This document shows positions 32,693-48,566 of a DNA stretch of 64,000 nt, piece by piece (positions within the stretch are counted from its first letter, which is position 1; each line of letters opens with the position of its first letter). Position numbers and translations under genes: made by a program. The stretch covers positions 62,001 through 126,000 of the forward strand of contig JAFS01000001.1 in the NCBI GenBank assembly GCA_000526255.1, given 5' to 3'. The stretch is from Verrucomicrobia bacterium LP2A. Its GTDB lineage: Bacteria > Verrucomicrobiota > Verrucomicrobiia > Methylacidiphilales > Methylacidiphilaceae. The notes under the pieces are model-generated. The model saw only the letters and a program-made list of their open reading frames with translations, did no database searches and was not told the DNA's origin.

Positions 32693-33054
32693 TGAGTGGA
32701 AACCAGATGAGACATCTCGAGCCGTTCCCGTTGCGCACGCTGGGGGGGTGGATTGTCGCAGTTCTCTTTCTCGCGGGAGTCGGCATTGCCTTTCTTTCCT
32801 TCAAGAACCAGGTCGCCCGACTCTCCCTCGAAGTGGCGCGCACGGAAAAGGATCTGATCCAGTGGAAAAAACGGAACATGCGGGTGCAGGTGGGGCTCGC
32901 CCGAGCAAGCTCCGCCGTGGAGCTGGAACGAAGAATCGCCTCTTGGCACCTCGGCTTGGTTAAGACGAGCGAGCTCGAAGTGGTCCGCATGGAGGAAGGG
33001 AAACCTTCCGACGCCCTTGCGGATACGACAAAGAGAGAACGACAACTGCCGTGA
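32692..33054 (+). CDS. ftsL: FtsL-like division protein
   Basis: 120 residues. A short cytosolic tail, one TM helix (about 16-36) and a coiled-coil-like segment (LSLEVARTEKDLIQWKK) match FtsL, which with FtsB and FtsQ activates FtsWI in the septum. Sequence is weakly conserved in this family, so the call rests on topology and on the position between rsmH and ftsI. Overlaps both neighbours by 1-4 bases. Confidence 0.8.
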   Translation: MSGNQMRHLEPFPLRTLGGWIVAVLFLAGVGIAFLSFKNQVARLSLEVARTEKDLIQWKKRNMRVQVGLARASSAVELERRIASWHLGLVKTSELEVVRMEEGKPSDALADTTKRERQLP

Positions 33055-34805
33055 AAACCCGTCAGCGATCACTCTGGGTCCTGGTTCTGCTCGCCTTCGG
33101 GTTCACCGTGGTTTCGCACCGGCTCATCCAGCTCCAGCTCGTCGAGCACCCGAAGTACGCACGGTTGGCGATGCTCAATCACTGCGCCCGAGTCGAGCTG
33201 CCGGCCCATCGAGGCATGGTCGTCGATGTTCATGGAACTCCGCTTGCTCAGAGCCAGGCCGTCTACGAGGTGCGCCTCGACGGAAAGAATCTTCTCGATC
33301 CGAAGCAGGCCCTTCCGAGGCTAGAAAACCTGCTCGGTCTGGAGTCGGGAACGATTTCCCGCACCTTCCGTCCGAGCGAGAGATATCGACTGCTCGCGAA
33401 GCGGGTGGGCGAAGATGTCGTTCAGAAGCTGAACGTCTTCGAGCAGGAAAAGCTGCGGGAGTGGCGTGCTCAAGGCAAGAACCCGGAGCCCTTCCTTCTC
33501 TTCCTTGAGGATTTCATCCGCGTTTATCCCAACGGGCGAGAGGGCGCTGCCATCGTCGGGTTGATGGACGCGGAAGGGAAGGGAGTTGCGGGAGTCGAGC
33601 GTGCCTTCGACCGACAGCTTCGCGGCTCCCCGGGGGAGCGTTGGATCGAAAAGGATGTCCTGGGCAGAGAAATTCCGGTATATCGTGGCTTCAACGCGGC
33701 TCCCGTCGACGGCGCGACGGTTCGACTGACCATCGACCTGACGATCCAGCACATTCTGGAGAAAGGACTGGACGATCTGGATCGGGAGTACCGGCCCAAG
33801 GCGATCTGCTCAGTCGTGATGCGGCCCTCAACGGGGGAAGTGCTGGCCATGGCCGTCCGGCCGACCTTCGATCCCAACGACGGAGAGCATGTCCGGCCGG
33901 AGCTGCTGCGCGACCGCTGCCTGACCGATCCCGTGGAGCCCGGGTCAATCTTCAAGATCGTCACGCTCGCGGGCGTCTTGGAAGAAAAGCAGGTGACCCT
34001 CAATTCGTCCGTCAACTGCGAGAACGGCGCCTTTTCCTACGCCGGCTACGTTTTGCACGACAGCCATCCCTACGGGACCCTCACCGTTCGGGAAGTGACC
34101 GCCAAATCGAGCAATATCGGTTTCGCCAAGCTGGGAATCGGCCTGGGTTCGGCTCGGCTCTACCGCTTCGCCCGCGCTTTTGGGATCGGCACCCCGACGG
34201 GGGTCTTGCCGTTGCAGGGAGAGTCGGGGGGCCTCCTTCGGGCTCCTTGGCAGTGGTCGAAGCTTTCCATCAGCCGGATTCCCATGGGACAAGAGGTGAT
34301 GGTGACCCCGATGCAGATGACGCAGGCGATGTCGGTCATCGCCAATGGGGGACTCTTCATGAAGCCCCAGCTGGTCCGGGGGTGGGTTTCTCCCGAAGGC
34401 AGGCCCACCTCTTACGTTGCGCCTCAGCAGGTGCGCCGCGTCATTTCGGAGAAGACGGCGCGCTGGGTCTCGCTCGCCCTCGCCAGCGTGGTGGCCAAAG
34501 GAGGTACCGGAACGAAAGCGGCCGTGCCCGGCTATACGGTGGCGGGAAAGACGGGGACGGCGCAAAAGGCGGTCGGCGGGAGCTACGCTCACAACCGTTA
34601 CGTCTCTTCTTTCATCGGTTATCTACCGGAGGAGGATCCCCAGTTCGTGCTGCTCATCATGGTGGATGAGCCGAAAGGGGGGCGCTACTACGGCGGCGAA
34701 GTCGCCGCACCCGCGTTCAGCTCGATGGCTGCCCAGATTGCGGAAGCCTTGGGCGTCGTGCCAAGGAGCGCGCCGGCACGGGCGGCACACCTGGGATCGT
34801 TGTGA
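33051..34805 (+). CDS. ftsI: septal transpeptidase FtsI (PBP2b/3 type)
   Basis: 584-residue class B penicillin-binding protein that crosslinks septal peptidoglycan. N-terminal TM (about 9-25), dimerisation domain with RGMVVDVHGTPLAQS, then the transpeptidase with SIFK (active serine in EPGSIFKIV), the SSN triad motif (AKSSNIGFAKLG) and KTGTAQ. GTG start within the GTGA overlap with ftsL. No C-terminal PASTA domain. Confidence 0.94.
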   Translation: MKTRQRSLWVLVLLAFGFTVVSHRLIQLQLVEHPKYARLAMLNHCARVELPAHRGMVVDVHGTPLAQSQAVYEVRLDGKNLLDPKQALPRLENLLGLESGTISRTFRPSERYRLLAKRVGEDVVQKLNVFEQEKLREWRAQGKNPEPFLLFLEDFIRVYPNGREGAAIVGLMDAEGKGVAGVERAFDRQLRGSPGERWIEKDVLGREIPVYRGFNAAPVDGATVRLTIDLTIQHILEKGLDDLDREYRPKAICSVVMRPSTGEVLAMAVRPTFDPNDGEHVRPELLRDRCLTDPVEPGSIFKIVTLAGVLEEKQVTLNSSVNCENGAFSYAGYVLHDSHPYGTLTVREVTAKSSNIGFAKLGIGLGSARLYRFARAFGIGTPTGVLPLQGESGGLLRAPWQWSKLSISRIPMGQEVMVTPMQMTQAMSVIANGGLFMKPQLVRGWVSPEGRPTSYVAPQQVRRVISEKTARWVSLALASVVAKGGTGTKAAVPGYTVAGKTGTAQKAVGGSYAHNRYVSSFIGYLPEEDPQFVLLIMVDEPKGGRYYGGEVAAPAFSSMAAQIAEALGVVPRSAPARAAHLGSL

Positions 34806-36280
34806 CGCTTCGGGATCTGCTGGTTGCTGTCGAGCCTTGCGGGGTGGCAGGGAAGGCGGATCCCTTGGTTCTAGGACTCTGCTACGATTCACGGATCGCA
34901 AAGCCGGGAGATCTGTTTTTTGCCTGGCAGGGCTCCAAGGTCGACGGCCATCAGTTCCTCGCGGATGTGATGAGCAAGGGAGTGGTCGCCATCGTGGGGG
35001 AGAGGGATCCGGCGACACTCTCCCTCGGCATCCCCTACGTGCGAGTCGACAACGCCCGCGAGGCGCTGGCTCGGATGGCGGAACGCTTTTACGGTCATCC
35101 GAGCGGCTCGATGGACTTGGTGGGAATCACCGGCACAAACGGGAAGACGACGACCGCGTTCCTCACGCACCATATTCTTGAATCGGTGGGGCGAAAGACC
35201 GGCCTCGTCGGCACGGTGCGCTACTCGCTCGGGGAGCGGACTCTGCCGGCGCGCCGGACCACACCCGAAGGAAGCGATCTGCAGAAGCTGCTCTCCGAAA
35301 TGCGGGAGATCGGTTGCCGCTCCGCCGTCCTGGAAGTTTCTTCCCACGCGCTGGCGCAGGGGAGAGTGGCCGGTCTGGATTTCGCGGTCGGAATCTTTAC
35401 CAACCTGACCTCGGATCATCTCGATTACCACGGGAGTCTCGAAAGCTACGGAGCGGCCAAGGCGTTGCTCTTCGAGCGGCTCGCCTCTTCGGAGAAGACG
35501 TCGGCCGCAGTGCTCAACGCGGACGACCCGGCTTGGCGCGCCCTTGGTTCGAGCCTTCGCCGGCCGAAGCGGATGCTTTTCTACAGCGCACGGGGCGCGC
35601 CCGAAGCCGATTTCCGGGCAGAGGACCTTCGTATGGATGCTTCCGGCAGCTCGTTTCTCTTGACTTATCCGGGGGGATCGCTTTTCGTCTCCATCCCGCT
35701 GCTGGGATCCTTCAATGTCGAAAACGCCTTGGGCGCCTTTGCCGCCGCCTTTGTTCTCGGCGTCTCCCCCCACCAGAGCGCCAGGGCGCTGGCCGGTTTT
35801 CCAGGAGTACCAGGCCGGATGGAGCGTTTCTGCTCCGCCGACGGCGTTATCGCTGTGGTCGATTATGCCCATACGGAGGATGCACTGCGGAAGACGCTGG
35901 CGGCTCTCCGGGAGCTGGCTCCGAAACGGCTCGGGCTCGTCGTCGGCTGCGGGGGGGACCGGGACCGGACGAAGCGGCCGAAGATGGCTGCGGCGGCCTG
36001 CGAGCTGGCCGATCGGGTTTTGTTTACCTCCGACAATCCGCGAACCGAATCGATCGAACGGATCTTCGCGGATATGTCCGAAGGTGTCCCCGCAGACCGT
36101 CTCCCGGTCTGGATTCCGGATCGTTGGCTCGCGATCGAGCAGGCTCTGCGCGAGGCCGGCCCGGGCGACTTGGTCTGTATCGCCGGCAAGGGACATGAAA
36201 CGACGCAGGAGGTGCAAGGCGTCTTCCATTCCTTCGACGATCGGAGCGCGGTAAGCAAGGTCTTGGCGGCGAGAGGATAG
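34802..36280 (+). CDS. murE: UDP-MurNAc-L-Ala-D-Glu:meso-DAP ligase MurE
   Basis: 492-residue cytosolic ligase adding the third stem-peptide residue. ATP site GITGTNGKTTTAF, substrate lysine region and C-terminal domain are present. The motif DNPRTE (in TSDNPRTES) is the DNPR signature of meso-diaminopimelate-specific enzymes, so the peptidoglycan is predicted to be of the DAP type. GTG start inside a GTGA overlap with ftsI. murF starts six bases after it. Confidence 0.95.
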   Translation: MTLRDLLVAVEPCGVAGKADPLVLGLCYDSRIAKPGDLFFAWQGSKVDGHQFLADVMSKGVVAIVGERDPATLSLGIPYVRVDNAREALARMAERFYGHPSGSMDLVGITGTNGKTTTAFLTHHILESVGRKTGLVGTVRYSLGERTLPARRTTPEGSDLQKLLSEMREIGCRSAVLEVSSHALAQGRVAGLDFAVGIFTNLTSDHLDYHGSLESYGAAKALLFERLASSEKTSAAVLNADDPAWRALGSSLRRPKRMLFYSARGAPEADFRAEDLRMDASGSSFLLTYPGGSLFVSIPLLGSFNVENALGAFAAAFVLGVSPHQSARALAGFPGVPGRMERFCSADGVIAVVDYAHTEDALRKTLAALRELAPKRLGLVVGCGGDRDRTKRPKMAAAACELADRVLFTSDNPRTESIERIFADMSEGVPADRLPVWIPDRWLAIEQALREAGPGDLVCIAGKGHETTQEVQGVFHSFDDRSAVSKVLAARG

Positions 36281-36286
36281 AACCAT

Positions 36287-37663
36287 ATGGAGCCTTGTTC
36301 TCTTGAGAGAATCGAGGAGTGGAGCGGAGGGTCCCGCAAGCGCGGAGATGCGGGAATCATGCTTTTGCGGGTTCATACCGACTCGCGGACCATTCAGCCC
36401 GGCGACTGTTTCTGGGCTCTTTCGGGAGCGAACTTTGACGGCCATGATTTCGTAGAGGAGGCCTTTCGCCGGGGCGCCCGTGCGGCCGTTGTCGCTCGTT
36501 CGATGGATCGCCTTTCCCTTCCCGCGGACGCGGGTCTCGTGGTCGTCGCGGACACGCTCGCCGCGCTGCAGCAGTTCGCCCATCGATACCGCCGAGCACT
36601 TCCTGCGAAAATCGTTGCGGTGAGCGGCAGCAGCGGAAAGACGACGACCAAGGAGCTGATCCTGGCCGTCTTGCGGAGCCGCTTTCCGGTGCACGGCAAT
36701 GCGGGAAATCGAAACAATCAGATCGGATTGCCTTTGGCGATTCTCGATTTCACCCCGGAGATTGCCTTCGGCATTCTCGAAATGGGAACGAACCATCCTG
36801 GGGAAATCGCTTGTCTGGCCGCCATCGCGGCTCCGGACATGGGAGTTCTCACAAACATCGGCCTTGCCCATGTCGGATTTTTCGGAAGCGACGAGGCGAT
36901 TGCCGAGGAAAAAATGGCCCTCTTGGCGGCTCTCCCTCTGGATGGGTGGGCCATCCTCCCAGACGAGGACGCATGGATTCGTCGCATGGCCGGTCGATGC
37001 CGAGGCAGGGTCCTCTGGGTCGGCACGGGCTCCGAGGCGTATTGGCGGGCGCGGCAGATCGAGATGCGGGGAGAGGGGATCCACTTCCTGCTTCAGGGGG
37101 ATGGGGAAGAGTTGCCGGTGCAGCTCCGGACGGCCTCTCGAGCGGTCGTCACCGACGCCCTGCTGGCGGCGGGAGTGGGAAGGCTGGCGGGATTGTCGGC
37201 CCGGGAGATCGTTCGGGCGTTGGAAAGTGCGGTCTACCCGGCGCATCGAATGGAGATTCGCGCTCTTCCGGATGGTTGGGTCATCGATGACAGCTACAAC
37301 GCCAATCCCGATTCGGCTCTGGCGGCCCTCCAAGCCCTTGGGGAATTTCCGAAGGGCGAGCGGAAAGGGGCCGTTCTCGGCACCATGGGGGAGCTCGGGG
37401 AGCAATCGATCGATCTGCATGAGCGATTGGGACGGAGTGCGGGCGCCCTGCCGATCGCGTTCCTGATTGTGGTGGGACCCGAGGCGGAAACTCTGGCTCG
37501 AGGAGCGGCGGCCGGAGGGCTTCCGCAGGAAAGGATCCGCCGATGCGCCACCGCCGATGAGGCGATGCGGGAGTTGCACGCCTTGCGGCGGGCGGGCGAT
37601 GTGATCTTGGTGAAGGGCTCCCGATTTCTTGGGCTCGAGCGCCTGGTGGAAGCTCTGATGTAG
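36287..37663 (+). CDS. murF: UDP-MurNAc-tripeptide:D-Ala-D-Ala ligase MurF
   Basis: 458-residue ligase completing the UDP-MurNAc-pentapeptide. Motifs are the ATP loop VSGSSGKTTTKEL, NAGNRNNQIGLPL, EMGTNHPGEI, LTNIGLAHVGFFG and the C-terminal DDSYNANPDS. Length and order are standard. The 64-base gap before mraY carries an AAAGGAG ribosome site. Confidence 0.95.
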   Translation: MEPCSLERIEEWSGGSRKRGDAGIMLLRVHTDSRTIQPGDCFWALSGANFDGHDFVEEAFRRGARAAVVARSMDRLSLPADAGLVVVADTLAALQQFAHRYRRALPAKIVAVSGSSGKTTTKELILAVLRSRFPVHGNAGNRNNQIGLPLAILDFTPEIAFGILEMGTNHPGEIACLAAIAAPDMGVLTNIGLAHVGFFGSDEAIAEEKMALLAALPLDGWAILPDEDAWIRRMAGRCRGRVLWVGTGSEAYWRARQIEMRGEGIHFLLQGDGEELPVQLRTASRAVVTDALLAAGVGRLAGLSAREIVRALESAVYPAHRMEIRALPDGWVIDDSYNANPDSALAALQALGEFPKGERKGAVLGTMGELGEQSIDLHERLGRSAGALPIAFLIVVGPEAETLARGAAAGGLPQERIRRCATADEAMRELHALRRAGDVILVKGSRFLGLERLVEALM

Positions 37664-37727
37664 CGGTGGCGAAGAATGATGAGGGAACGGGAGGAGACCG
37701 CAAGGGCGGAACGAAAGGAGTTTCGAG

Positions 37728-38828
37728 GTGCTCTACTACCTACATTTGCTCTCAGGAAGTTTTATTGGGTTTAATGTATTTCGCTACATCACGTTCCGGG
37801 CGGTCGGGGCGGCGCTGACGGCTCTCTTCATCTCTTGGATCTTCGGGCGTCCCACGATCGGCATGCTCCGGCGCCTGAAGATGGGCCAGCCGATTCGCGG
37901 AAAGGAAGAAGTGAGGCATTTGGCCGACCTGCACGGAGCAAAGGCCGGAACGCCTACGATGGGGGGATTGCTGATTCTCTCGGCACTCCTCGGAAGCTGC
38001 CTGCTCTGGGCTGTGCCAACGAATCGTTTCCTCTGGATCTGCCTGGGGGGAACGGTCGCGCTCGGAGCTCTCGGCTTCTGGGACGACTACCTTAAGGTAG
38101 TGCAGAAAAAGTCGGCGGGCATTCCCGGGCGCGTCAAGCTCCTGGTCCAGGCCGCTGTCGCCCTGGTCGCAGGCGTGCTCCTCCTCGGAAATCCCGAGAC
38201 GGTACGGGAAGCGAGCAAGGTGGCCGTGCCGTTCTTGAAATCGATCTCTCGAATCGAGCTCGGATGGGCGGCCCTGCCCTTCTTCCTGCTCGTCGTGATG
38301 GGCTCGTCGAACGCGGTGAATCTCACGGACGGTCTCGACGGACTGGCGATCGGTTGCTCGATCGGAGTCGCACTCGTCTTCGCAGTCTTCTGCTACGTAG
38401 CTGGGCGTCCGGATTGGAGCTCCTACCTCTTCGTGCCCCATGTGCGGGGCGCGGACGAACTGGCCGTCTTCTGCGCGGCGCTGCTCGGAGCCAGCATCGG
38501 ATTCCTCTGGTACAACTGCCATCCGGCCGAAGTCTTCATGGGCGATACCGGTTCCTTGGCTCTTGGGGGGGCTTTCGGCCTGCTCTCGATTTCCATCGGA
38601 CAAGAGCTTCTTCTGGTCGTCGCCGGAGGCATCTTCGTCCTCGAGGCTCTTTCGGTCATGATCCAGGTTGCCTCGTTTCGATTGACGGGAAAGAGGGTAT
38701 TCGCGATGGCCCCCTTGCATCACCATTTCGAGCTGAAAGGCTGGGGAGAATCGAGGGTGACTGTCCGTTTCTGGATTTTGAGCCTGCTTTGCGGGCTCCT
38801 GGCACTTTCGAGCCTGAAATTGAGGTGA
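37728..38828 (+). CDS. mraY: phospho-MurNAc-pentapeptide transferase MraY
   Basis: 366-residue inner-membrane enzyme forming lipid I on undecaprenyl phosphate. About ten TM helices; signature KAGTPTMGG, the catalytic FWDDYLKV, NAVNLTDGLDGLA and the C-terminal HHHFEL loop are all intact. GTG start with AAAGGAG nine bases upstream. Confidence 0.95.
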   Translation: MLYYLHLLSGSFIGFNVFRYITFRAVGAALTALFISWIFGRPTIGMLRRLKMGQPIRGKEEVRHLADLHGAKAGTPTMGGLLILSALLGSCLLWAVPTNRFLWICLGGTVALGALGFWDDYLKVVQKKSAGIPGRVKLLVQAAVALVAGVLLLGNPETVREASKVAVPFLKSISRIELGWAALPFFLLVVMGSSNAVNLTDGLDGLAIGCSIGVALVFAVFCYVAGRPDWSSYLFVPHVRGADELAVFCAALLGASIGFLWYNCHPAEVFMGDTGSLALGGAFGLLSISIGQELLLVVAGGIFVLEALSVMIQVASFRLTGKRVFAMAPLHHHFELKGWGESRVTVRFWILSLLCGLLALSSLKLR

Positions 38829-38852
38829 GGGCATCCGAGGAGAAAACGGCGA

Positions 38853-39665
38853 ATGAGAAGAAAAATACGATCGTCGGCCAAGGTGCTGCGCTGGAAGGCC
38901 TCGGGTCCCCCGAGCGGAGTTGCGGCATATCCCTCCCCGGGAGCAACGGAACTCGTGCAGCAAGAGCTCCCGCTGAAGGAAAGCACGGCTGGACTGCGGG
39001 TGATCACGGTCATCCTCGCCGTCATGCTCCTTCACGTGCTCTTTATCGGAAGCATCGCCCTCTACAATCTCCTGGGCGGTAGAGGAAAATCGGCTCGGAC
39101 CGGGAGCGTGGGAGAAAACAGCCCGGCCGTCGTCGATGGGTCGGGCGCGCGACCGGCAAAAAAGCCGGATGAGGAATTATTGGGGACGGCAGCGCCGCCA
39201 TCCTCGTCCACCGTGCGTTCCCGCCGAGGAGGGGGGAAGGGGCAGAGCGGTACTTCTTCGTTGTCGAACGCCGAGGAGACAGGGAGGAAAAAGGGAGGTA
39301 AGAGGCAGCTCCGCCGGGTCTCCGCCCAAGAAGACGGGGAAAAAGCCAATGTCTCGGAGGCTGCTCCTGCGAAAGGGCAGCGGACAGGGCAAGCTCGCGG
39401 CACGGTGCAGACGGCATTGCTTACCCAACCGCAGGACGAGTCGGCGGACCCGGCGCCTTCCGCTGCGGGCGGTTCTCGCGCTTACCACGTGGTTCGCGGT
39501 GACACTCTCTGGCGGATCGCCCGTCGCTTCCACGTCGGGCTCGACGATCTGATGACAGTCAATCGGCTGACTCTCGCAAGCAAGCTGCACATCGGCGAGG
39601 AGCTTCAGATCCCTGCGGCGAAGGCGGGCCGGGCTCGCCGCAGCGGCGGCGCAGCAGGCGAATGA
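38853..39665 (+). CDS. LysM-domain membrane protein in the murD position
   Basis: 270 residues. A short cytosolic part is followed by one TM helix (about 49-70), a long low-complexity linker rich in Gly, Ser, Arg and Lys (about 75-205) and a single C-terminal LysM domain: AYHVVRGDTLWRIARRFHVG with LHIGEELQIP. LysM binds peptidoglycan, so a wall-anchored role near the septum is likely. In most dcw clusters murD sits between mraY and ftsW; nothing resembling murD is present here. No catalytic domain is visible. Confidence 0.85.
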   Translation: MRRKIRSSAKVLRWKASGPPSGVAAYPSPGATELVQQELPLKESTAGLRVITVILAVMLLHVLFIGSIALYNLLGGRGKSARTGSVGENSPAVVDGSGARPAKKPDEELLGTAAPPSSSTVRSRRGGGKGQSGTSSLSNAEETGRKKGGKRQLRRVSAQEDGEKANVSEAAPAKGQRTGQARGTVQTALLTQPQDESADPAPSAAGGSRAYHVVRGDTLWRIARRFHVGLDDLMTVNRLTLASKLHIGEELQIPAAKAGRARRSGGAAGE

Positions 39666-39696
39666 GGAGCGGGAAGGGGGATGAAAGGATAGGGGG

Positions 39697-40854
39697 GTGA
39701 GGGAAAGAACGCTTCACCGCTGGATCGGGTATGCACTGATCCTCGTTGCCTTTGCGCTCATGGGACTCGGCTTGATCGCCCTGTACAGCGCGGCTGGCCG
39801 TTTCGTGGGCGAGAAGGACGCCTCGCTCCTTCCCCTGGTCGAGAGGCAGCTCTGCTGGATCGGGATGGGTATCGGCGCGGGTGCGCTCTTGACGCGCATC
39901 GACTATCATTGGTTCCTGAAGCATTCCTGGGCGCTGCTGGGCCTCGGGCTCTTTCTACTCTTGCTCTGCTTTCTTCCCGGAGTCGGCCATACCGTGCATG
40001 GATCTTCCCGCTGGATCTCCCTCGGTCCGTTGACCTTGCAGCCATCGGAGCTCATCAAATGGTTCCTCTGCATCTTTGCTGCGGCGCAATTGGGAAAGCC
40101 CGTTCTCCAGCCAAGGGGGAGATGGCGTCGCTACGCGACGGTCCTCGCCGTGACGGTGGCCTTTGCCGGCCTTCTGCTCCTTGCCCGCGATCTGGGAAGT
40201 GCTGCTCTTTACCTCGCCCTGGCTACGGTGGTTCTGGTAATTGCCGGGATGCCGCTCTGGCTCATCGGACCGGGCTGCCTGACGGCAGCAGGCATGATTC
40301 TCGGGGTGGCTTTGAGCATTCCCGAACGGAGGGCCCGATTGCTCGCCTTTTGGAACATGGAGAGCGATAAGCAGGGCAAGGCCTATCAGGTATGGCAGGC
40401 GCTCGTGGCTCTTGGCTCCGGAGGGGTCACCGGGCTCGGATTGGGGAACAGCCGGCAGAAGATGTATTATCTTCCCGAAGCCACGACCGATTTCATCTTT
40501 CCCATTCTTGGGGAGGAGCTCGGTCTTTGGGTGACCCTGGGCGTGGTGCTGGCCTACCTTGTGCTTGCCCTGTGCGGCGGCTGGATTGCGCTTTTTGCCC
40601 CCGACGGGGAGGGAGTCTTGCTCGGCATGGGGCTGGTCACGCTGATCGCCGTCCAGGCAATCGCCAACCTGGGAGTTGTTACGGGTCTCTTGCCGAACAA
40701 AGGACTCCCCTTACCCTTCATCAGCTACGGCGGATCGAATGTCCTGTTTTGCCTGATGGCGCTGGGCACCCTTCTCAACATCCACCGGCAGGGAGGAAAC
40801 GGATCGGCCTTTTCTGTGGAATCCCAAGGAGCGCAGCGCAACGTGCGGCTATGA
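39697..40854 (+). CDS. ftsW: septal glycosyltransferase FtsW (SEDS family)
   Basis: 385-residue SEDS protein polymerising glycan at the septum with FtsI. About ten TM helices; motifs RWISLGPLTLQPSELIKW, ESDKQGKAYQVWQAL, the EELG region (FIFPILGEELG) and LPLPFISYGGSN. GTG start 31 bases after the LysM gene. Its stop overlaps the murG ATG (ATGA). Confidence 0.94.
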   Translation: MRERTLHRWIGYALILVAFALMGLGLIALYSAAGRFVGEKDASLLPLVERQLCWIGMGIGAGALLTRIDYHWFLKHSWALLGLGLFLLLLCFLPGVGHTVHGSSRWISLGPLTLQPSELIKWFLCIFAAAQLGKPVLQPRGRWRRYATVLAVTVAFAGLLLLARDLGSAALYLALATVVLVIAGMPLWLIGPGCLTAAGMILGVALSIPERRARLLAFWNMESDKQGKAYQVWQALVALGSGGVTGLGLGNSRQKMYYLPEATTDFIFPILGEELGLWVTLGVVLAYLVLALCGGWIALFAPDGEGVLLGMGLVTLIAVQAIANLGVVTGLLPNKGLPLPFISYGGSNVLFCLMALGTLLNIHRQGGNGSAFSVESQGAQRNVRL

Positions 40855-41951
40855 GCAAGCAATGCGTCGTCATCGCCTGCGGCGGCACGGGCGGGCACCT
40901 CTTTCCGGGCCTTGCCGTCGCCGAGGAATTGCGGCGACGGGGGAAAGAGATTTGCCTGCTCCTTTCCGAAAAGCGGATCGACCGGACCGCCTTGGAGGGA
41001 GAAGGGGACTTTCCTTGGGAAACCCTTCCGACCATAGGATGGCCAGGGGGCCTTTCGGCGAGGACGCCGGCATTTTTTGGGAAGCTCGGGCTAAGCTGGT
41101 GGAACTGCAGGGTTCTCTTTCATCGGTTGGCCCCGGGAGCGGTTCTCGGGATGGGGGGCTTTTTGAGCGCCGCCCCGCTTCTCGTCGCCAGGGGGCGGCG
41201 GATTCCAACCTTGCTCCATGAGTCGAACGCCGTCCCCGGTCTGGTCACCCGCCTCTTTTGTCGCAAGGTCGACCGTCTCCTCCTCGGTTTCGAGGCCTGT
41301 CGGGAGCGTTTGCCGGGAATCCCGTCGATCGTGACGGGAACTCCTCTTCGCGCGAGGCTCCAGAGGGTTCCTCGCAGCGAGGCGGCGGAGGCCCTTGGGC
41401 TTGCGTCCGATCGCTCGACCATCCTTGTCCTGGGGGGAAGTCAGGGCGCGCAAGCCTTGAATCGCCTTTTGCGAGAGGCGGCACCCGCCTTGGCCCAAGC
41501 TTCGAAGCCAGTGCAGATTCTCCATCTTTCTGGTCCGGCGGAGCGCGAGGCTTGTTTGTCGGCCTACCGAGCGCAGCGGATTCCCGCACGGGTCGAAAGC
41601 TTTTCCCATCGAATGGATCTCTTTTACAGCCTGGCTGATGTCGCGGTTGCTCGCTCCGGAGCCGCCACCCTGTCGGAAGTCGCCTTCTATGGCCTGCCGA
41701 CCATCCTCGTCCCCTTTCCCTTCGCCGCCGACGATCATCAGCGCATCAACGCAAAAGCTTTCGTGGCGGCGGGAGCGGGTTTGGCCTACGATCAGGCGGC
41801 TTTATCTGGAGAGACGTTGGCCAAGGCGCTCGTGGAGATCTTGAGCGACGAGAGGAAGCGGCAAGCGATGGGCGCCGCGGCGGCGGGCTTGGCACGGTCG
41901 GACGCGGCCAGGGCGGTTGCGGAGGAGGTGGAGCGATGCATGCAACGTTGA
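40851..41951 (+). CDS. murG: UDP-GlcNAc:lipid I transferase MurG
   Basis: 366-residue GT28 enzyme making lipid II at the cytosolic membrane face. N-terminal glycine loop CGGTGGHLFPGLAVAEEL, then GMGGFLSAAPLL, HESNAVPG, VLGGSQGAQALN and the donor-binding ARSGAATLSEVAFYGLPTI. The frame is open upstream, but the ATG in the ATGA overlap with ftsW precedes the motif correctly. The stop lies 16 bases inside the next gene. Confidence 0.95.
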   Translation: MSKQCVVIACGGTGGHLFPGLAVAEELRRRGKEICLLLSEKRIDRTALEGEGDFPWETLPTIGWPGGLSARTPAFFGKLGLSWWNCRVLFHRLAPGAVLGMGGFLSAAPLLVARGRRIPTLLHESNAVPGLVTRLFCRKVDRLLLGFEACRERLPGIPSIVTGTPLRARLQRVPRSEAAEALGLASDRSTILVLGGSQGAQALNRLLREAAPALAQASKPVQILHLSGPAEREACLSAYRAQRIPARVESFSHRMDLFYSLADVAVARSGAATLSEVAFYGLPTILVPFPFAADDHQRINAKAFVAAGAGLAYDQAALSGETLAKALVEILSDERKRQAMGAAAAGLARSDAARAVAEEVERCMQR

Positions 41952-44233
41952 GGGGTTCCTGGACCGGCTGCCTGAGCCGGCCGACTCGAATTCATCTTGT
42001 CGGCGTGGCGGGCTCCGGGGTGGGGCCGCTCGCCCGCCTCCTGCTGCTTCAGGGACATCACGTATCCGGATCGGATCGGCGGAGGACTCCCGCCGTCGCC
42101 GATCTCGAGGGGATGGGACTCCGCTTTTCCTGTGGGCATGACGGCGATCTGCCCGATGGGGTCGAGCTTCTGGTCTATTCGTCCGCCGTTCGGGAGGACA
42201 ACCCCGAGCGCAAGATTGCCGCGGCACGGGGGATTCCGACCGCGCGAAGAGCCGATCTGCTCCAGGAGCTTTGCCGGGCAAAGAAATCGATCGTCGTCGC
42301 GGGAATGCATGGAAAGACGACGACCACGGCTCTCCTTGCCCATATCCTGCGCCGGAGCGGATGGGAGCCGTCCTACTACGTCGGGGGCGATGCGCCCGTT
42401 CTCGGCGCGAGCTCGGATTGGGGCGGAGGGGACTATATGGTCATCGAGGGCGACGAGAGCGACGGCACGCTCGCTTCCTTTCAGCCCGCGCACGCCGTGC
42501 TGTTGAACGTGGAGGAGGAGCATCTGGATTTTTATCCGGGAATGGAGGCAATCCTCGATGTCTTTGCCACCTTCCTCGACCGATGCACGGGCAAGATTGT
42601 CTATTGCGCCGATGACCGGTATGCTTCGACGCTTTGCGCCGAACGAAGGAATGCGGTGAGCTACGGCCTGGGCCCCGAGGGTCGGTACCGCGCCGAGCGG
42701 GTCGAGCTGGGGCCCTTCGAGAGCACGTTTCTCCTGGTCGCCGGAGGAGAGCCGATCGGCGAGGTCCGCGTGCCGCTTCCCGGAAGGCAAAATGTCCAGA
42801 ACGCTTTGGCCGGAATCGCCCTGAGCCTGGAGCTCGGGCTGCCTTTTGCCGATATTGCTCTGGCAATGGCGGGCTTCCGGGGAGTCAAGCGGCGTTTCGA
42901 GGTGCTCTTCGCTGGTCCTTCCTTTCTGGTCGTCGATGACTACGCGCACCATCCCACGGAGATTCGAGCCACGCTCGCCGCCGCCCGGGGGGCCGGCCGA
43001 AAGCGGGTGGTGGCCCTTTTCCAGCCCCATCGCTATTCCCGGGCGCATGGACTCGAAAGGGAATTCGCGACCGCCTTTCGAGGGGCGGATCTGGTCTTGG
43101 TGACGGATATTTATGGCGCGGGTGAGCAACCCATTGAAGGAGTAAGCTCGGAGCGGCTGGCGCGAATGATCGCCGAGGGGAGCGGAGTGAAGGCGCTCTC
43201 CGCCTGCAGCGTCTTGGAGGCGAAGAAGGCGGCGGCCGCAAGCCTCCGCCCGGGCGACCTCTTCCTGGCGCTGGGAGCCGGCGATGTGCATCGGGTGGCT
43301 CGAGCGCTTGCCGCGCAATGTTCCCTTTGCGAGGAGCTGCGGCGATCTCTGTCGCCATCGGCCGTTCTCTCCCTTTCGGAACGCCTGGGCCCGCATACGG
43401 CATCCGGTTTGGGGGGACCTGCGGAACTCTGGTGCGAGCCTGCGAGCCGGGAAGACCTCTGTCGCGTAATCGGGGTCGCCGATCGCGAAAAGATGCCCCT
43501 TACGGTCATCGGCAGCGGTTCCGGCAGCTTGATTGGCGATGGGGGAGTTCGCGGCCTCTGTGTGAGCTTGCGCCATCCTGCCTTCCGCCAGGTGATTGTC
43601 GACGGCGGAGAGGTTGCGATCGGCGGCGGGGCGCTCCTCTCTCGAGTCGCCGAGGAGACCGCTCGCCGAGGGGTGGGTGGATTTTCTTTTCTCTCCGGCG
43701 CTGCAGGCACGATCGGCGCTTTGCTGGCCCGTGGGTCGTGCGCCCTGAAGCGGCACCTCCTCGATCGACTCGAGGAGGTGGTCCTGGTCGATCGGAAGGG
43801 AGAATGGCAGGTCCTTCTCCCAGGAGAAGGCGGCGCCTGGCCAGAAGACGGGGCCTGGGGCCATCTCGGCATCGTCGTCGGCGTACGGCTGCGGACCGTT
43901 CCTTTCCGGAAGGGGGAGGCTTTTCGGGTGCCGCTTTCGGACTCCGGAATGGATGCGGCTTCCGGGATGAGCGGCCGCTGGCTCGTCCGAGTCTTTCGAG
44001 ATCCGGGGGGAGCGGATATGCGCCAGCTTTGGCAGGGATTGGGCCCGGATCCGATCGAGATCGGCGGAGCTTGGATCGAGCCCTCAGTCCCGAACCGGAT
44101 TCGGTTGCGGGAGGGAGCGAGAACGGCGGATGTGCTCGCCCTCATGGAGGAAATTCGGAAGCGGTTGCACGAAGGGAACGGCGTTGAGCTGGTTCCCGAC
44201 CTTGTCATCTTCAGAGAGGAGGAGCAGTTGTGA
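41936..44233 (+). CDS. murC: MurC fused to a degenerate MurB domain
   Basis: 765 residues. Residues 18-460 are a complete MurC (UDP-MurNAc:L-Ala ligase): GVAGSGVGPLA, ATP loop GMHGKTTTT (123-131), EGDESDGT, DDYAHHPTEI (334-343) and LALGAGDVHR. Residues about 475-760 align with MurB, the FAD-dependent UDP-GlcNAc-enolpyruvate reductase. Conserved pieces are GLGGPAE (491-497), GSGSGSLIGDGGVRG and GTIGAL, plus a MurB-like end. But the YR pair is gone (WGHLG), the SFFKNP serine is replaced (VFRDP, 686-690) and the final glutamate region reads ELVPDL. No frameshift explains this. Reductase activity is doubtful. Confidence 0.9.
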   Translation: MHATLRGSWTGCLSRPTRIHLVGVAGSGVGPLARLLLLQGHHVSGSDRRRTPAVADLEGMGLRFSCGHDGDLPDGVELLVYSSAVREDNPERKIAAARGIPTARRADLLQELCRAKKSIVVAGMHGKTTTTALLAHILRRSGWEPSYYVGGDAPVLGASSDWGGGDYMVIEGDESDGTLASFQPAHAVLLNVEEEHLDFYPGMEAILDVFATFLDRCTGKIVYCADDRYASTLCAERRNAVSYGLGPEGRYRAERVELGPFESTFLLVAGGEPIGEVRVPLPGRQNVQNALAGIALSLELGLPFADIALAMAGFRGVKRRFEVLFAGPSFLVVDDYAHHPTEIRATLAAARGAGRKRVVALFQPHRYSRAHGLEREFATAFRGADLVLVTDIYGAGEQPIEGVSSERLARMIAEGSGVKALSACSVLEAKKAAAASLRPGDLFLALGAGDVHRVARALAAQCSLCEELRRSLSPSAVLSLSERLGPHTASGLGGPAELWCEPASREDLCRVIGVADREKMPLTVIGSGSGSLIGDGGVRGLCVSLRHPAFRQVIVDGGEVAIGGGALLSRVAEETARRGVGGFSFLSGAAGTIGALLARGSCALKRHLLDRLEEVVLVDRKGEWQVLLPGEGGAWPEDGAWGHLGIVVGVRLRTVPFRKGEAFRVPLSDSGMDAASGMSGRWLVRVFRDPGGADMRQLWQGLGPDPIEIGGAWIEPSVPNRIRLREGARTADVLALMEEIRKRLHEGNGVELVPDLVIFREEEQL

Positions 44234-45138
44234 ACAAGAAGCTTCGGGTGGCTGTCCTGGAAGGAGGTCCTTCGCACGAAAGGGAAGTTTCGTTGCGAAC
44301 GGGAGAGGCCGTGACAGCGGCTTTGCGGCAGTTGGGCTACCCGGTGGAGGAGGTCGATCCGAGGGAGGGGGATGTCGTCATTCCCGATGGGACCGAGATC
44401 GTCTTTCTCTGCTTGCATGGAACCTTCGGAGAGGACGGACAGGTCCAGAGGCTGCTCCTGCGGCAGGGCCTCCCTTTCACGGGCAGCGGGGCCGACGCGA
44501 GCGAACGGGCCTTCGATAAGTCGTGGAGCAAGGAAATCTTCCGAAAAGCCGGCGTGCCGACTCCGGGTTGGACCCTGGCGCGTTCGGGCGACGGGCTCCC
44601 GCTTTCCCTCCCCTTCGTGATCAAGCCGGCGCGGCAGGGGTCGAGCATCGGGATCAGCCGTGTTTTCGAGGAGAAGGACTACCCGGAAGCCCTGGCCCGA
44701 GCGACGGCGGAAGATCATCTCGTCGTGGCGGAAGCCTATATCGAGGGACGAGAGCTCACGGTGGGTATCCTGGGGGAAAACCTTCTGCCGATCGTCGAGA
44801 TCCGCCCCAAGGCGGGCTTTTACGATTACCGCAACAAGTACACTTCCGGGGCCAGCGAATATCTCTGCCCGGCACCCCTCCCGACCGACGTGGCCCAATC
44901 GGTCGCCGCAATCGCCCGCGCCGCCTATCGATCGCTCGGTTGTACGGTCTACGGACGCGTGGATGTGCTTCTGGACGGGGCCGGGAATCCCTGGGTTCTG
45001 GAGGTGAATACGATTCCGGGCATGACGGAGACCAGCCTCTTCCCGAAAGCCGCTCGGGCGGCCGGAATCGCCTTTCCGCAGCTCTGCGAGGAGGTCCTCC
45101 AGCTTTCGTGGACCGAACGGAACAGGCAGTCGAGATGA
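44230..45138 (+). CDS. ddl: D-alanine--D-alanine ligase
   Basis: 302-residue ATP-grasp enzyme making D-Ala-D-Ala for MurF. N-terminal VLEGGPSHEREVSLRTG, LHGTFGEDGQVQ, FTGSGADASERAFDK, VIKPARQGSSIG, YDYRNKYTSG and the C-terminal EVNTIPGMTETSLFP are intact. GTG start in a GTGA overlap with murC; stop overlaps the ftsQ ATG. Confidence 0.95.
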   Translation: MNKKLRVAVLEGGPSHEREVSLRTGEAVTAALRQLGYPVEEVDPREGDVVIPDGTEIVFLCLHGTFGEDGQVQRLLLRQGLPFTGSGADASERAFDKSWSKEIFRKAGVPTPGWTLARSGDGLPLSLPFVIKPARQGSSIGISRVFEEKDYPEALARATAEDHLVVAEAYIEGRELTVGILGENLLPIVEIRPKAGFYDYRNKYTSGASEYLCPAPLPTDVAQSVAAIARAAYRSLGCTVYGRVDVLLDGAGNPWVLEVNTIPGMTETSLFPKAARAAGIAFPQLCEEVLQLSWTERNRQSR

Positions 45139-45995
45139 ACCGCTTCCGTAAGTCCAACCAGAGAAGACGCTCGACCCGGAGCGTCCTGCAGACGAAGGCG
45201 GGAGCGCAGCAGCGAAGGCGACTCTTCTTGCGGCGCATCTCCTTGCTTGTGCTGATCGTCGCGGGCCTCGTCGGTGTGGGCAGCGCCGGTTACTACGTGG
45301 GATCCCGATTGGCGCTCCCGTTTTTGTCGACAGATTCGCGCTATGCCTTGCAGGAAGTCGTGCTCGACGGCACCGAACGCCTTCCTCGCAAGGAGATCCT
45401 AGCCGCGTGCGGACTGCGGCTGGGTCAAAACCTGCTGAGCATCTCGCTGCCGGAGGTCTACAAGGCGGTCTCATCGCTCCCCTATGTGCAGCGAGCCTCG
45501 GTTCGCCGGGAGCTTCCCAACCGCATTGAGATTACCGTCGAGGAGCGAGTCCCGCTCGCAAAAGTCTGGACCAAGGCCAAGCGATTTGCCGGCCAGAACT
45601 TATGCGTCGATTTCCAAGGAGTGATCTTCGTAGCGCGCAAGGGTGAGGTCGTCGCCCTTCTCCCCGAGCTCGAAGGCGTCCCGTCCGACGATCTGGAGAT
45701 CGGGAATCGGTTGCATACACCGGAGTGTCGAGCGGCTCTGCGCCTGCTCCGCCTCCTGCAAGGGACCCCATCCTTGCGCAATCTCCTCGATCCAGCGAGT
45801 CTCGACGTCTCGGGTCATCTCAACCTGAGGGTTGTTACCCGCGATGGGATAGGAGTTGTCTTGCGTCTGGACCATCTGGAGAGGCAGATGAGGAGGCTGC
45901 AAAAGATTTATGCCTTTTCGCAGAGCCGCGGTCGCAAGGTGGCTTCCGTCGATCTGACTCCGGAGCAGAATGTTCCGGTGATTTTCGAGCATTAG
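45135..45995 (+). CDS. ftsQ: cell division protein FtsQ
   Basis: 286 residues. A basic cytosolic tail, one TM helix (about 36-60), a POTRA domain (YALQEVVLDGTERLPRKEIL...) and the FtsQ/DivIB domain (LPYVQRASVRRELPNRIEI, VEERVPLAKVW) are visible. It links FtsL/B and FtsWI to the ring. The ATG falls in the ATGA overlap with ddl; a longer open frame upstream is antiparallel-free shadow of ddl and is not used. Confidence 0.9.
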   Translation: MNRFRKSNQRRRSTRSVLQTKAGAQQRRRLFLRRISLLVLIVAGLVGVGSAGYYVGSRLALPFLSTDSRYALQEVVLDGTERLPRKEILAACGLRLGQNLLSISLPEVYKAVSSLPYVQRASVRRELPNRIEITVEERVPLAKVWTKAKRFAGQNLCVDFQGVIFVARKGEVVALLPELEGVPSDDLEIGNRLHTPECRAALRLLRLLQGTPSLRNLLDPASLDVSGHLNLRVVTRDGIGVVLRLDHLERQMRRLQKIYAFSQSRGRKVASVDLTPEQNVPVIFEH

Positions 45996-46005
45996 GACAG
46001 CTTCG

Positions 46006-47241
46006 ATGTTCGGCAATAAATCTCGGTCGGTCCTTGTCGGGCTGGAGGCGGGAACCAGCAAGATCAAGGTAGCCGTCGCGGAGCTCAATGCCCGAGGAGC
46101 CCTGACTCTCCTCGGGGTGGCCGAGAGCCCTTCGACGCATATTCGCAAGTGCGAGATTACCGACTTCGAGATGACGCAAAAGGCGATCCATCAGGCGATC
46201 CTGGACGCGGAGGAAAAAACGGACGTTTCGATTGGAGAGGTCTACCTGGCGATCTCGGGTGCTCATATTCGCTCCTTCCAAAGCCGCCTCGCCCTCGATT
46301 TGGGACGGGAAGGGGCGATGATCGAGCAAGGCCATTTGCGCGAGCTGCGCGAACTGGTGCGGCAACAGGCCCTGCCACAGGGGCAAATCTTGCTCCACGA
46401 TCTTTTGCAGACCTACATTCTGGACGACGGGACAGCGACCGCGAATCCCGTCGGGCTCTTCTCCCGCCGCCTCATGGCCGACTATCACCTGGTTTCCGGG
46501 ATCGCAACGCGTCTCCAGACCACGGTTCACTGCGTGAAGGAGCTCTCGCTTCGGGTGAAGGCGTATGCCTTGTCGAGCTATGCTACCGCCCAGGCGCTCC
46601 TAAGCCCGGAGCAGAAGAGCTTCGGATCGGTCGTCATCAATTGCGGAGCGGGGATCACCGATTACATCGTCTATCGGAATGGGTTTGTCGCCCATTCGGG
46701 AACGCTCGGGGTAGGAGGAGACCACCTGACCAACGATCTCGCCGTTGCCGTGAAGATTCCGTTCCCCCGAGCCGAGGAGCTCAAGAAGACCCATGGCACG
46801 GTGGATTTGCGGGAAGACGTGGCGCATCGCCGTGTCGGCCTGATGGCCGGGGGGTCCTACGAGCAGCAATTCGTTCCGATGTCCTTGATCGTGGAAGTGC
46901 TTCAGGCGCGGCAGGCGGAGATCTTCGAGATCATTCGGGAAAACTTGGAAGATCAGCCGTTCTGGGAGGGCTTCTCGGGAAGGATCTTCTTGACGGGCGG
47001 AGGTTCCCAGCTTGACGGCATCCAGAAGTTGGCGACAAAGATTTTCGATCGGCCCGTGGAGGCGGCGAAGCCGCTCGCCTTCGAGGGAGAGGTCTCTTGC
47101 GAGGGGAGGCAAGGTTGGACAACCGTGTTGGGCCTGCTGCGGTATGGGCGTATCGTGGAAATGCAGGAGAGCGGGGGCGGCCGATGGGACCGTATAGGTC
47201 GGTCGCTGAGCCGGTTCCTTTCGAGGATCCGGTTATTTTAG
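46006..47241 (+). CDS. ftsA: cell division protein FtsA
   Basis: 411-residue actin-like protein tethering FtsZ to the membrane. Phosphate-1 loop VGLEAGTSKIKVAVAE, the 1C domain, NCGAGITDYIVYRNG, TLGVGGDHLTNDLA and FLTGGGSQL are present. The last residues (IGRSLSRFLSRIRLF) form the amphipathic membrane-targeting helix. The gene is otherwise normal, which makes its odd FtsZ partner downstream stand out. Confidence 0.93.
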   Translation: MFGNKSRSVLVGLEAGTSKIKVAVAELNARGALTLLGVAESPSTHIRKCEITDFEMTQKAIHQAILDAEEKTDVSIGEVYLAISGAHIRSFQSRLALDLGREGAMIEQGHLRELRELVRQQALPQGQILLHDLLQTYILDDGTATANPVGLFSRRLMADYHLVSGIATRLQTTVHCVKELSLRVKAYALSSYATAQALLSPEQKSFGSVVINCGAGITDYIVYRNGFVAHSGTLGVGGDHLTNDLAVAVKIPFPRAEELKKTHGTVDLREDVAHRRVGLMAGGSYEQQFVPMSLIVEVLQARQAEIFEIIRENLEDQPFWEGFSGRIFLTGGGSQLDGIQKLATKIFDRPVEAAKPLAFEGEVSCEGRQGWTTVLGLLRYGRIVEMQESGGGRWDRIGRSLSRFLSRIRLF

Positions 47242-47331
47242 GAACAGTTCTTGTCGATTCTTGTGGAAGACGTCCATGAGGGAGAACCGGAAACTCATCG
47301 ATGGGTCAGTGAAAACGGTCGAGGAAAGAGA

Positions 47332-48468
47332 ATGAGCGTGCGCATCGTGGGAGCGGGTGCGGCGGGGATCAATGTCGTCGACGAGTGGATTCTTTTATCG
47401 GATTGCCCGACGGGGAGCCTGGCCTGCGACGGTGAGGCTTCCTCGGTCGATGGGTCGCTTGCGTCGCAAAAGCTCCTCCTTGCGCCCGACATTACGGGCG
47501 GGCTCGGCTGCTTCGGCAGCCGCGATCTTGCCTGGCGGATGGTGGGGCAGGAGAATCAGCAGCTGGAAGAGCTTCTCAAGGATTGTTCCCGCTTGTTGAT
47601 CGTGACCGGGCTTGCCGGAGCAACGGGTGCGACGGTCGCGGAAGTCCTTTCCCTCAAAGCTGTGGAGCGAGAGATTCCGACTACGGTTTTCGCGTTCCCT
47701 CCCTTTCCTTTTGAGACGGAGGAGCGACAGGAAGCGGCGGAGGCGACCCGCGATGCCCTCCCGGCCGAAGCGTCTCTCTTTCTTTTTCCGCCTCCGCCGC
47801 TCTCAGAAGAGCCCATCCCGGATGTCGCCGCGGTGCGGCGAGGGTTGCGCGCCTTTCAGAGTGCCCTCGCCCAGTGGGTCGATGTCTGGTCGGGGATGGC
47901 TCGCGGTGTCGTTTTGCCTGCCAATCCAGGAGCCGAGGCGGAGTCTTCCCGATTCACCGTCGCTGGGGTAATCGAGGATTGCCATGTTTTCAGCGAAGCG
48001 CGCGCTCGGCTCGATCTCTCGTTGCCGGGGTTCCTGGAGGGGAGCGGATTCCGGCAGGCGGCTGAGAAGGCCGATCGCTGCCTGGCTTACATTGAGGCTG
48101 GTGGCGAGGACTCCGGCTGGAAGGAGGAGCTCGGGGAACGGCTGCGGGAATTTCTCCCGAAGCGAACACGCCTCGACCTTCTCCGGCGAACCGAGGCTCG
48201 CCCGACGGAAACCCGGCTCTTGCTTCTCGTGGGTCGAGCCGCTTCTCGGCATCCGACGCCGGTGTGCCCGGAGCGGGATGAGGAGAGGCCGGCTCCGGAG
48301 CCGGCGCGAATCCCGCTCCGTCCTTGCGTCTTCCCGGAACCGGAAGGGCGGCTCGTCCCTGCCTCCCAGGCCTCCCAGGATGGCACCCCCTTCGCAAAAA
48401 CTGCGGCTACCCTGCACAAAGGCCAGAATCTGGATATTCCTGCGTTCCGGCGGAGGAGCCGGAGCTAA
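47332..48468 (+). CDS. ftsZ: highly divergent FtsZ-like protein
   Basis: 378 residues from the ATG with GGAAAGAG upstream; GTG 47251 is an alternative. It sits right after ftsA, where ftsZ belongs. An FtsZ-like N-terminus is traceable: GAGAAGINVV (7-16), TGGLGC near 55, the region LLIVTGLAGATGATVAEVL (88-106) in place of the GGGTGTG tubulin signature, and TTVFAFPPFPFETEER (117-132). No NLDFAD-type T7 catalytic loop can be found, and PNDRL is replaced by FPPPPL. The C-terminus ends in LDIPAF (367-372), the FtsA/ZipA-binding peptide of true FtsZ. GTP hydrolysis in the standard way is doubtful. Confidence 0.75.
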   Translation: MSVRIVGAGAAGINVVDEWILLSDCPTGSLACDGEASSVDGSLASQKLLLAPDITGGLGCFGSRDLAWRMVGQENQQLEELLKDCSRLLIVTGLAGATGATVAEVLSLKAVEREIPTTVFAFPPFPFETEERQEAAEATRDALPAEASLFLFPPPPLSEEPIPDVAAVRRGLRAFQSALAQWVDVWSGMARGVVLPANPGAEAESSRFTVAGVIEDCHVFSEARARLDLSLPGFLEGSGFRQAAEKADRCLAYIEAGGEDSGWKEELGERLREFLPKRTRLDLLRRTEARPTETRLLLLVGRAASRHPTPVCPERDEERPAPEPARIPLRPCVFPEPEGRLVPASQASQDGTPFAKTAATLHKGQNLDIPAFRRRSRS

Positions 48469-48566
48469 GCGGGCGAGGGAATGATTTGCGGAGCGCGGAA
48501 AGCCGGCTTGTGCTTCGCCCGCAAAGATAGGGTATTGTGCCCGGGAGGGACCGCGGCGGATCGAGT

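Follow-up and report, generated by a model that had tools for sequence, protein, structure and literature searches.

A dcw-cluster FtsZ of Methylacidimicrobium with no recognisable T7 loop and a conserved FtsA partner

The ftsZ gene found directly after ftsA in a Methylacidimicrobium genome encodes a protein that is an FtsZ by descent, fold, position and tail, but is not a standard FtsZ by its T4 loop, its T7 loop or the curated family model. On balance, this single functional FtsZ is probably a nucleotide-binding scaffold that is held by FtsA and is not turned over by hydrolysis of its own. The window is the whole stretch of 64,000 nucleotides that was analysed; all positions refer to it. The source genome (2.47 Mb, 99.9% complete) belongs to Methylacidimicrobium, acidophilic bacteria that consume methane, whose named relatives are M. 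cyclopophantes and M. tartarophylax.

The locus and the conserved FtsA partner

ftsZ is the open reading frame 47332-48468 (+). It encodes 378 aa from an ATG closely preceded by a good ribosome-binding site (GAGGAAAGAG), and it lies directly 3' of ftsA (46006-47241) where a standard dcw cluster ends, the place expected of FtsZ. An alternative TTG start at 47251 would give 405 residues. The features are listed below, with the evidence in brackets.

33051..45138, + strand: upstream dcw cluster, namely ftsI-type PBP, murE, murF, mraY, LysM protein, ftsW, murC-murB fusion and ddl (Pfam; ddl from its open reading frame)
44230..45138, + strand: ddl (open reading frame)
45186..45995, + strand: ftsQ, POTRA_1 and FtsQ_DivIB_C domains (Pfam)
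46006..47241, + strand: ftsA, conserved partner with C-terminal amphipathic tail (TIGR01174; 84-91% identity in the genus)
47332..48468, + strand: ftsZ, T7-less FtsZ ortholog, 378 aa (PF00091, 47.4 bits; profile-profile match)
47344..47373, + strand: T1 loop region IVGAGAAGIN, residues 5-14; Gly7, Gly9 and Gly12 invariant in the family (alignment)
47500..47517, + strand: T3 loop region GLGCFG, residues 57-62, invariant in the genus (genus alignment)
47608..47634, + strand: T4 "tubulin signature" GLAGATGAT, residues 93-101 (alignment)
47701..47715, + strand: T5 region PFPFE, residues 124-128, invariant in the genus (genus alignment)
47776..47799, + strand: T6 region LFLFPPPP, residues 149-156 (alignment)
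47824..47901, + strand: core helix H7, residues 165-190, pLDDT about 90 (model)
47902..47967, + strand: place of the T7 loop and helix H8, residues 191-212, beginning GVVLPANPGAEAESSRF, pLDDT 57-80 (alignments, model)
47968..48243, + strand: C-terminal subdomain, residues 213-304, with equivalents of S7, H9, S8, H10, S9 and S10; fast evolving, fold kept (dN/dS, divergence ratio, model)
48385..48465, + strand: C-terminal FtsA-binding peptide TPFAKTAATLHKGQNLDIPAFRRRSRS (near-invariant in the genus; extended motif phylum-wide)

murC and murB form a single fused gene (window 41936-44230). Such a fusion is likewise reported for Verrucomicrobium spinosum. The gene 3' of ftsZ (window 48537-49739) encodes a helix-turn-helix and a periplasmic-binding-protein-like domain (PF12727), and its product is possibly a one-component ligand-sensing regulator.

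The same ftsZ is found in every Methylacidimicrobium genome with an unbroken locus; in one genome (G006), ftsA lies at a contig end. Assembly, frame or sequencing error and chance were ruled out, since the six species with a complete gene agree in the same losses.

FtsA is actin-like and binds ATP. The FtsA of the window is a normal member of TIGR01174 (269 bits, cut-off 176) and ends in an amphipathic-looking stretch, RWDRIGRSLSRFLSRIRLF; the partner is intact, as first noticed. It keeps R and E aligned with R300 and E303 of a PDB chain, residues that bind FtsZ in E. coli. Identity to the window FtsA is 84-91% in the genus, 55-59% in the sister genera and 46-49% in most of the order; for FtsZ the corresponding values are 57-80%, 23-29% and 26-27%. 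One distant order member has 34% (FtsA) and 22% (FtsZ).

Fold, sequence elements and selection

PF00091 matches the window FtsZ above its threshold (47.4 bits, cut-off 33), covering residues 3-139 only, and is the sole Pfam family reported at E up to 1; PF13809 gave no match. TIGR00065, the FtsZ equivalog model, falls far short (40.5 bits, cut-off 295.2); the order member L015 (181.9 bits) is likewise below this cut-off. In profile-profile alignment, the genus or the whole family matches 23 other verrucomicrobial FtsZ over 292-302 columns (E 6e-36 / 2e-48); the alignment runs through H7, the place of T7 and the C-domain. One alignment, made at full length against distant FtsZ of viral contigs, was discarded: it placed a 30-residue gap at T6-H7, which was judged false because intermediates of the family and the order show that this region is colinear.

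AlphaFold given five genus sequences alone reached pLDDT 36; when its input combined full-length genus sequences with IMG/VR-contig FtsZ rows covering the N-domain, it gave a model of the window protein with pLDDT 85.6 and pTM 0.89, showing the two-domain FtsZ fold and core helix H7. The Foldseek / VIA-align matches listed are all FtsZ or CetZ (best Z about 28 over about 291 residues). As the input held canonical N-domain rows, the likeness of the N-domain is partly built in; that of the C-domain is not. Residues 191-212 are the least certain region of the model, with helix only as a three-residue turn. The predicted fold has both domains of FtsZ in full, and only T7 and helix H8 are replaced by a low-confidence loop; fold alignment, proposed with the original prediction, gave an FtsZ with no T7 or H8 beyond this turn.

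The T7 loop of E. coli FtsZ is numbered N207-x-D209-x-x-D212. None of the six complete FtsZ of the genus, the window protein included, contains an N-x-D-x-x-[DE] string, and in neither the sequence nor the profile-profile alignment is a T7 position aligned to Asn or Asp. The T7 motif that was said to be missing is thus missing in all six; its absence is family-wide and not special to the window genome. The T4 loop reads GLAGATGAT (residues 93-101) and not GGGTGTG, as first noticed, and fails the GGGTG[ST]G signature (the window reads AGATGAT). Relative to E. coli, Gly105, Gly107 and Thr110 are replaced by Ala; Gly103, Gly106, Thr108 and Gly109 are kept. The Gly-to-Ala changes are mild, and an order member that keeps Asp212 (L046) has the near-identical GLAGATGV. 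The T6 Asn and the H7 Asn/Asp touch guanine in FtsZ. In Methylacidimicrobium the T6 Asn (Asn165 in E. coli) is replaced by P or A, and the H7 Asn/Asp is altered to Q/H. The tail kept its LDIPAF, as reported at the outset (NLDIPAFRRR); its sole variation in the genus is F to Y in one member (NLDIPAY). The conserved C-terminal peptide is longer than that of E. coli, with a motif like RGRFEKSxxTxxxGExLDxPTFxRR across the phylum.

dN/dS was estimated by the Nei-Gojobori method on six species (15 pairs). Over the whole gene it is 0.27 for ftsZ versus 0.09 for ftsA, ftsZ evolving about three times as fast. By part of ftsZ, it is 0.12 (residues 1-140), 0.30 (141-200), 0.40 (201-305), 0.83 (linker) and 0.20 (tail). 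ftsZ is under purifying selection and is not a pseudogene. By this pattern, selection maintains the tail and the half with the nucleotide loops, and holds the half with the activating face only loosely, as would fit a protein whose nucleotide half and FtsA tail are still in use. The claim that standard GTPase features were lost holds for T7; for the nucleotide-binding half, which is conserved best, it goes too far. The C-domain to N-domain ratio of divergence is 2.57 in Methylacidimicrobium and 1.65 in Methylacidiphilum; outside the family it is 0.93-1.36 in four verrucomicrobial groups, with single pairs in one group reaching 2.72.

T7 erosion in the phylum and other tubulins in the genome

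T7 is not recognisable in the whole family (Methylacidimicrobium, Methylacidiphilum and a third genus, which has Glu at 212). In the order outside the family it is typically GLIQLSFADVRSL: the Asn and the first Asp are lost and Asp212 is kept. One large group within the class reads GLINLDFSTLRQ and has lost Asp212. Among 40 further FtsZ spread over about 35 families of the phylum, the alignment proposed with the original prediction found a complete N-D-D triad in 6; Asn207 is present in 17, Asp209 in 25 and Asp or Glu at 212 in 26, with at least one acid in each. Different lineages lost different members of the triad (FtsZ L216-L255, L007-L092). FtsZ of three genomes of a family with bacterial tubulins, probably that of V. 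spinosum, has neither Asn207 nor Asp209. As a control, N-x-D-F-A-D is intact in 34 of 35 FtsZ from IMG/VR contigs (printed stretches, one of the 34 beginning at D-F-A-D); the 35th reads NIDLRD. In total, 76 IMG/VR contigs (L097-L172) encode FtsZ relatives, most of them about 50% identical to E. coli FtsZ, with T7 intact in those examined (NIDLRD once); these genes are either phage-borne or host contamination. A scan of the viral contigs with the order profile gave no match.

By these alignments, T7 erosion is phylum-wide; the family of Methylacidimicrobium is near the extreme and one other family, f37, goes further, which answers the question, raised at the outset, of how far this FtsZ exceeds the reported divergence of verrucomicrobial FtsZ. 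Family f37 is suspected to be Lentisphaeria. In three of its genomes the ftsA-adjacent FtsZ has 383-417 aa and an eroded T7, T4 being destroyed in one. In six others (G139, G246, G280, G211, G214, G240), FtsZ has 247-304 aa and consists of the N-domain and the tail, without C-domain or T7 (L202, identical to L184, L204, L205, L206, L209, L210); these are single assemblies, mostly metagenome-like drafts, and the open frame of G280 spans 317 aa, its true start probably lying further in. GGGTGTG is found among them in G139 only. FtsA was detected in the same locus as the f37 FtsZ in all but G240, whose locus is short. The tail and part of the N-domain can therefore outlive the polymer-forming half in this phylum. 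A second FtsZ-like protein of f37 (TIGIGGAGSKIAAKL...GGGTGNG) has no FtsA-binding tail (L189, L195, L201); the ftsA-linked FtsZ of these genomes is reduced. Three genomes of 5-6 Mb of another family, f39, perhaps Lentisphaera (G217, G229, G274), have no confident PF00091 match; a 376-aa frame reaches about 18-19 bits (L196-L198).

It had also been proposed that a second, canonical FtsZ could do the polymerising. Searches of the 99.9%-complete source genome with PF00091, PF13809 and a 23-sequence FtsZ profile returned, besides the window gene, only an FtsZl1 gene of the Tubulin_2 family (PF13809, 213 bits), and PF00091 and the FtsZ profile found the window gene alone; a hidden second FtsZ is thus unsupported. 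FtsZl1 (L062, G000:C2:904237-905256) lies in a 1,047-aa open frame on a contig other than that of the dcw cluster. Tubulin_2 was found in the four genomes of the genus that were tested and in two of the three Methylacidiphilum tested; the third genus of the family gave no match, and the relatives in which the search found none include G023 and G028, both T7-less. From its presence in two of three Methylacidiphilum and its absence from the searches of the third genus, it does not track T7 loss. FtsZl1 proteins have no recognisable T6-T7, and a direct role in division was judged unlikely (Makarova and Koonin 2010, PMC2875224). SepF, an alternative membrane anchor, was found in none of nine genomes. 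MreB is present (504 bits).

Mechanism, alternatives and meaning

In FtsZ filaments, each GTPase site is completed by the T7 loop of the neighbouring subunit, and hydrolysis reportedly requires this loop (PMC8456036). Because the equivalents of E. coli Asn207, Asp209 and Asp212 and most of H8 are gone, the window protein most likely has little or no assembly-coupled GTP hydrolysis. The expectation that classical hydrolysis between subunits is very unlikely, and that the ring would be unlike that of E. coli, is supported by this loss, as read from the sequence. Loss of hydrolysis need not stop division, since the hydrolysis-deficient FtsZ(D212G) of E. coli supports division and FtsA with FtsZ constricts liposomes largely without hydrolysis (PMC4383033). 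In B. subtilis, however, the corresponding change, D213A, gives slower treadmilling and condensation (PMC8079713).

The favoured explanation is vertical inheritance within the dcw cluster, during which the activating half of the GTPase would have been dismantled and the nucleotide-binding half and the FtsA-docking tail kept. FtsA would hold FtsZ on the membrane through the LDIPAF tail; the FtsZ scaffold would mark the division site and recruit the septal machinery; turnover would be supplied by other parts, FtsA being the obvious candidate. We infer that nucleotide is still bound, that hydrolysis is lost and that FtsA is the source of dynamics. Nucleotide binding itself may be lost, because the T6 Asn and the H7 Asn/Asp are altered too. 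The fast, weakly constrained C-domain speaks against a normal filament, and the protein could perhaps form no polymer at all.

The main alternative, rather unlikely, is that FtsZ no longer polymerises and is a tail-bound adaptor of FtsA, the ring being built from FtsA filaments or FtsA-recruited synthases. The fast part is the C-domain, which is one face of the longitudinal interface, and FtsA is strongly conserved; f37 FtsZ of 247-304 aa retain the tail without the C-domain, so the tail can be selected for even where the polymer-forming half is gone; and FtsZ is gone altogether in Planctomycetota and Chlamydiota (PMC12283558). However, the C-domain fold is still predicted in the genus, under some constraint (dN/dS 0.40), and a bare adaptor would have no need of the strong conservation seen in the top face and the nucleotide loops. 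Taken for the genus and for f37 together, the claim that Methylacidimicrobium FtsZ, and more clearly that of f37, is an FtsA-binding adaptor and not a GTP-driven filament, with ring and dynamics from FtsA, is a tentative one, on the unlikely side. Hydrolysis between subunits could instead persist through substitute residues of the divergent loop, such as an acidic GAEAE/GDEAQ stretch. Most genus members do have acidic residues after position 200 in the loop, and T7 triads vary widely in the phylum, yet V. spinosum ftsZ is essential (PMC12283558). This reading is nevertheless improbable: the genus alignment shows no loop position that is consistently acidic, the predicted order of the loop is low and dN/dS is 0.30 over residues 141-200. 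It is scarcely credible that ftsZ is a decaying remnant and that cells divide by means of a second FtsZ or of FtsZl1/Tubulin_2. In its favour, the four genomes of the genus that were tested all have a Tubulin_2 gene, and ftsZ evolves about three times as fast as ftsA; but purifying selection is strongest on the GTP-site half and the tail, the reading frame is intact with synteny in six species, there is no other match to PF00091 or the FtsZ profile, Tubulin_2 was not found in the T7-less G023 and G028, and its family, without recognisable T6-T7, was judged unlikely to have a direct role in division (PMC2875224).

The protein, probably a scaffold held by FtsA, can be set beside known systems. 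It shares with canonical FtsZ (E. coli, B. subtilis, M. tuberculosis) the fold over about 291 residues, T1/T3/T5, the dcw place after ftsA and the LDIPAF tail; unlike them, it has no T7 triad, almost no H8, Gly-to-Ala changes in T4 and no T6 Asn. Methylacidiphilum FtsZ (M. infernorum) also lacks T7, evolves fast beside a slow FtsA and has a similar extended tail motif, whereas it keeps T4 Gly105 and the T6 Asn and is 23-29% identical to the window protein. Hydrolysis-deficient mutants (E. coli D212G/D212A, B. subtilis D213A, S. aureus T7 mutants 3wgk/3wgl) have likewise lost T7 catalysis, which division survives in E. coli D212G (PMC4383033); these are laboratory changes in a canonical protein, whereas in the window protein the entire loop and most of H8 have been lost naturally, and the loss is fixed. 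FtsZ of Ca. Thiosymbion oneisti is a natural low-GTPase FtsZ for which no polymerisation was seen in vitro (PMC8953583), comparable to the low GTPase expected here from sequence; in contrast, its T7 loop and GTP-site residues are conserved (PMC8953583). FtsZl1 (PF13809), of the same genome, is also a tubulin-superfamily protein without recognisable T6-T7 (PMC2875224), but it has its own family model and its 1,047-aa frame is away from the dcw cluster.

Accelerated ftsZ evolution was reported for Methylacidiphilum infernorum, as data not shown and with no motif analysis, by Hou et al. 2008 (PMC2474590), where a reviewer's remark calls the Lentisphaera ftsZ non-functional. The FtsZ of M. infernorum was found only with an alternative query (Rivas-Marin et al. 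2016, PMC5147048). A 2025 study in which V. spinosum ftsZ is essential treats verrucomicrobial division as canonical (PMC12283558). In the open-access literature, no report was found of the T7 loss in the family, the phylum-wide erosion or the FtsZ without C-domain.

GTP-powered treadmilling of FtsZ is taught as the organising engine of bacterial division. A cultivable genus whose only FtsZ has no hydrolysis loop, in a phylum with T7 eroded nearly throughout, is a natural experiment on the need for hydrolysis. Biochemistry on purified proteins and the genetic tools that V. spinosum now has can test the claims directly. The phylum also supplies possible intermediate stages in the loss of FtsZ from Planctomycetota and Chlamydiota; if FtsZ is an adaptor here, the phylum would be a living series from near-canonical to T7-less to C-domain-less FtsZ, beside the FtsZ-free Planctomycetota and Chlamydiota.
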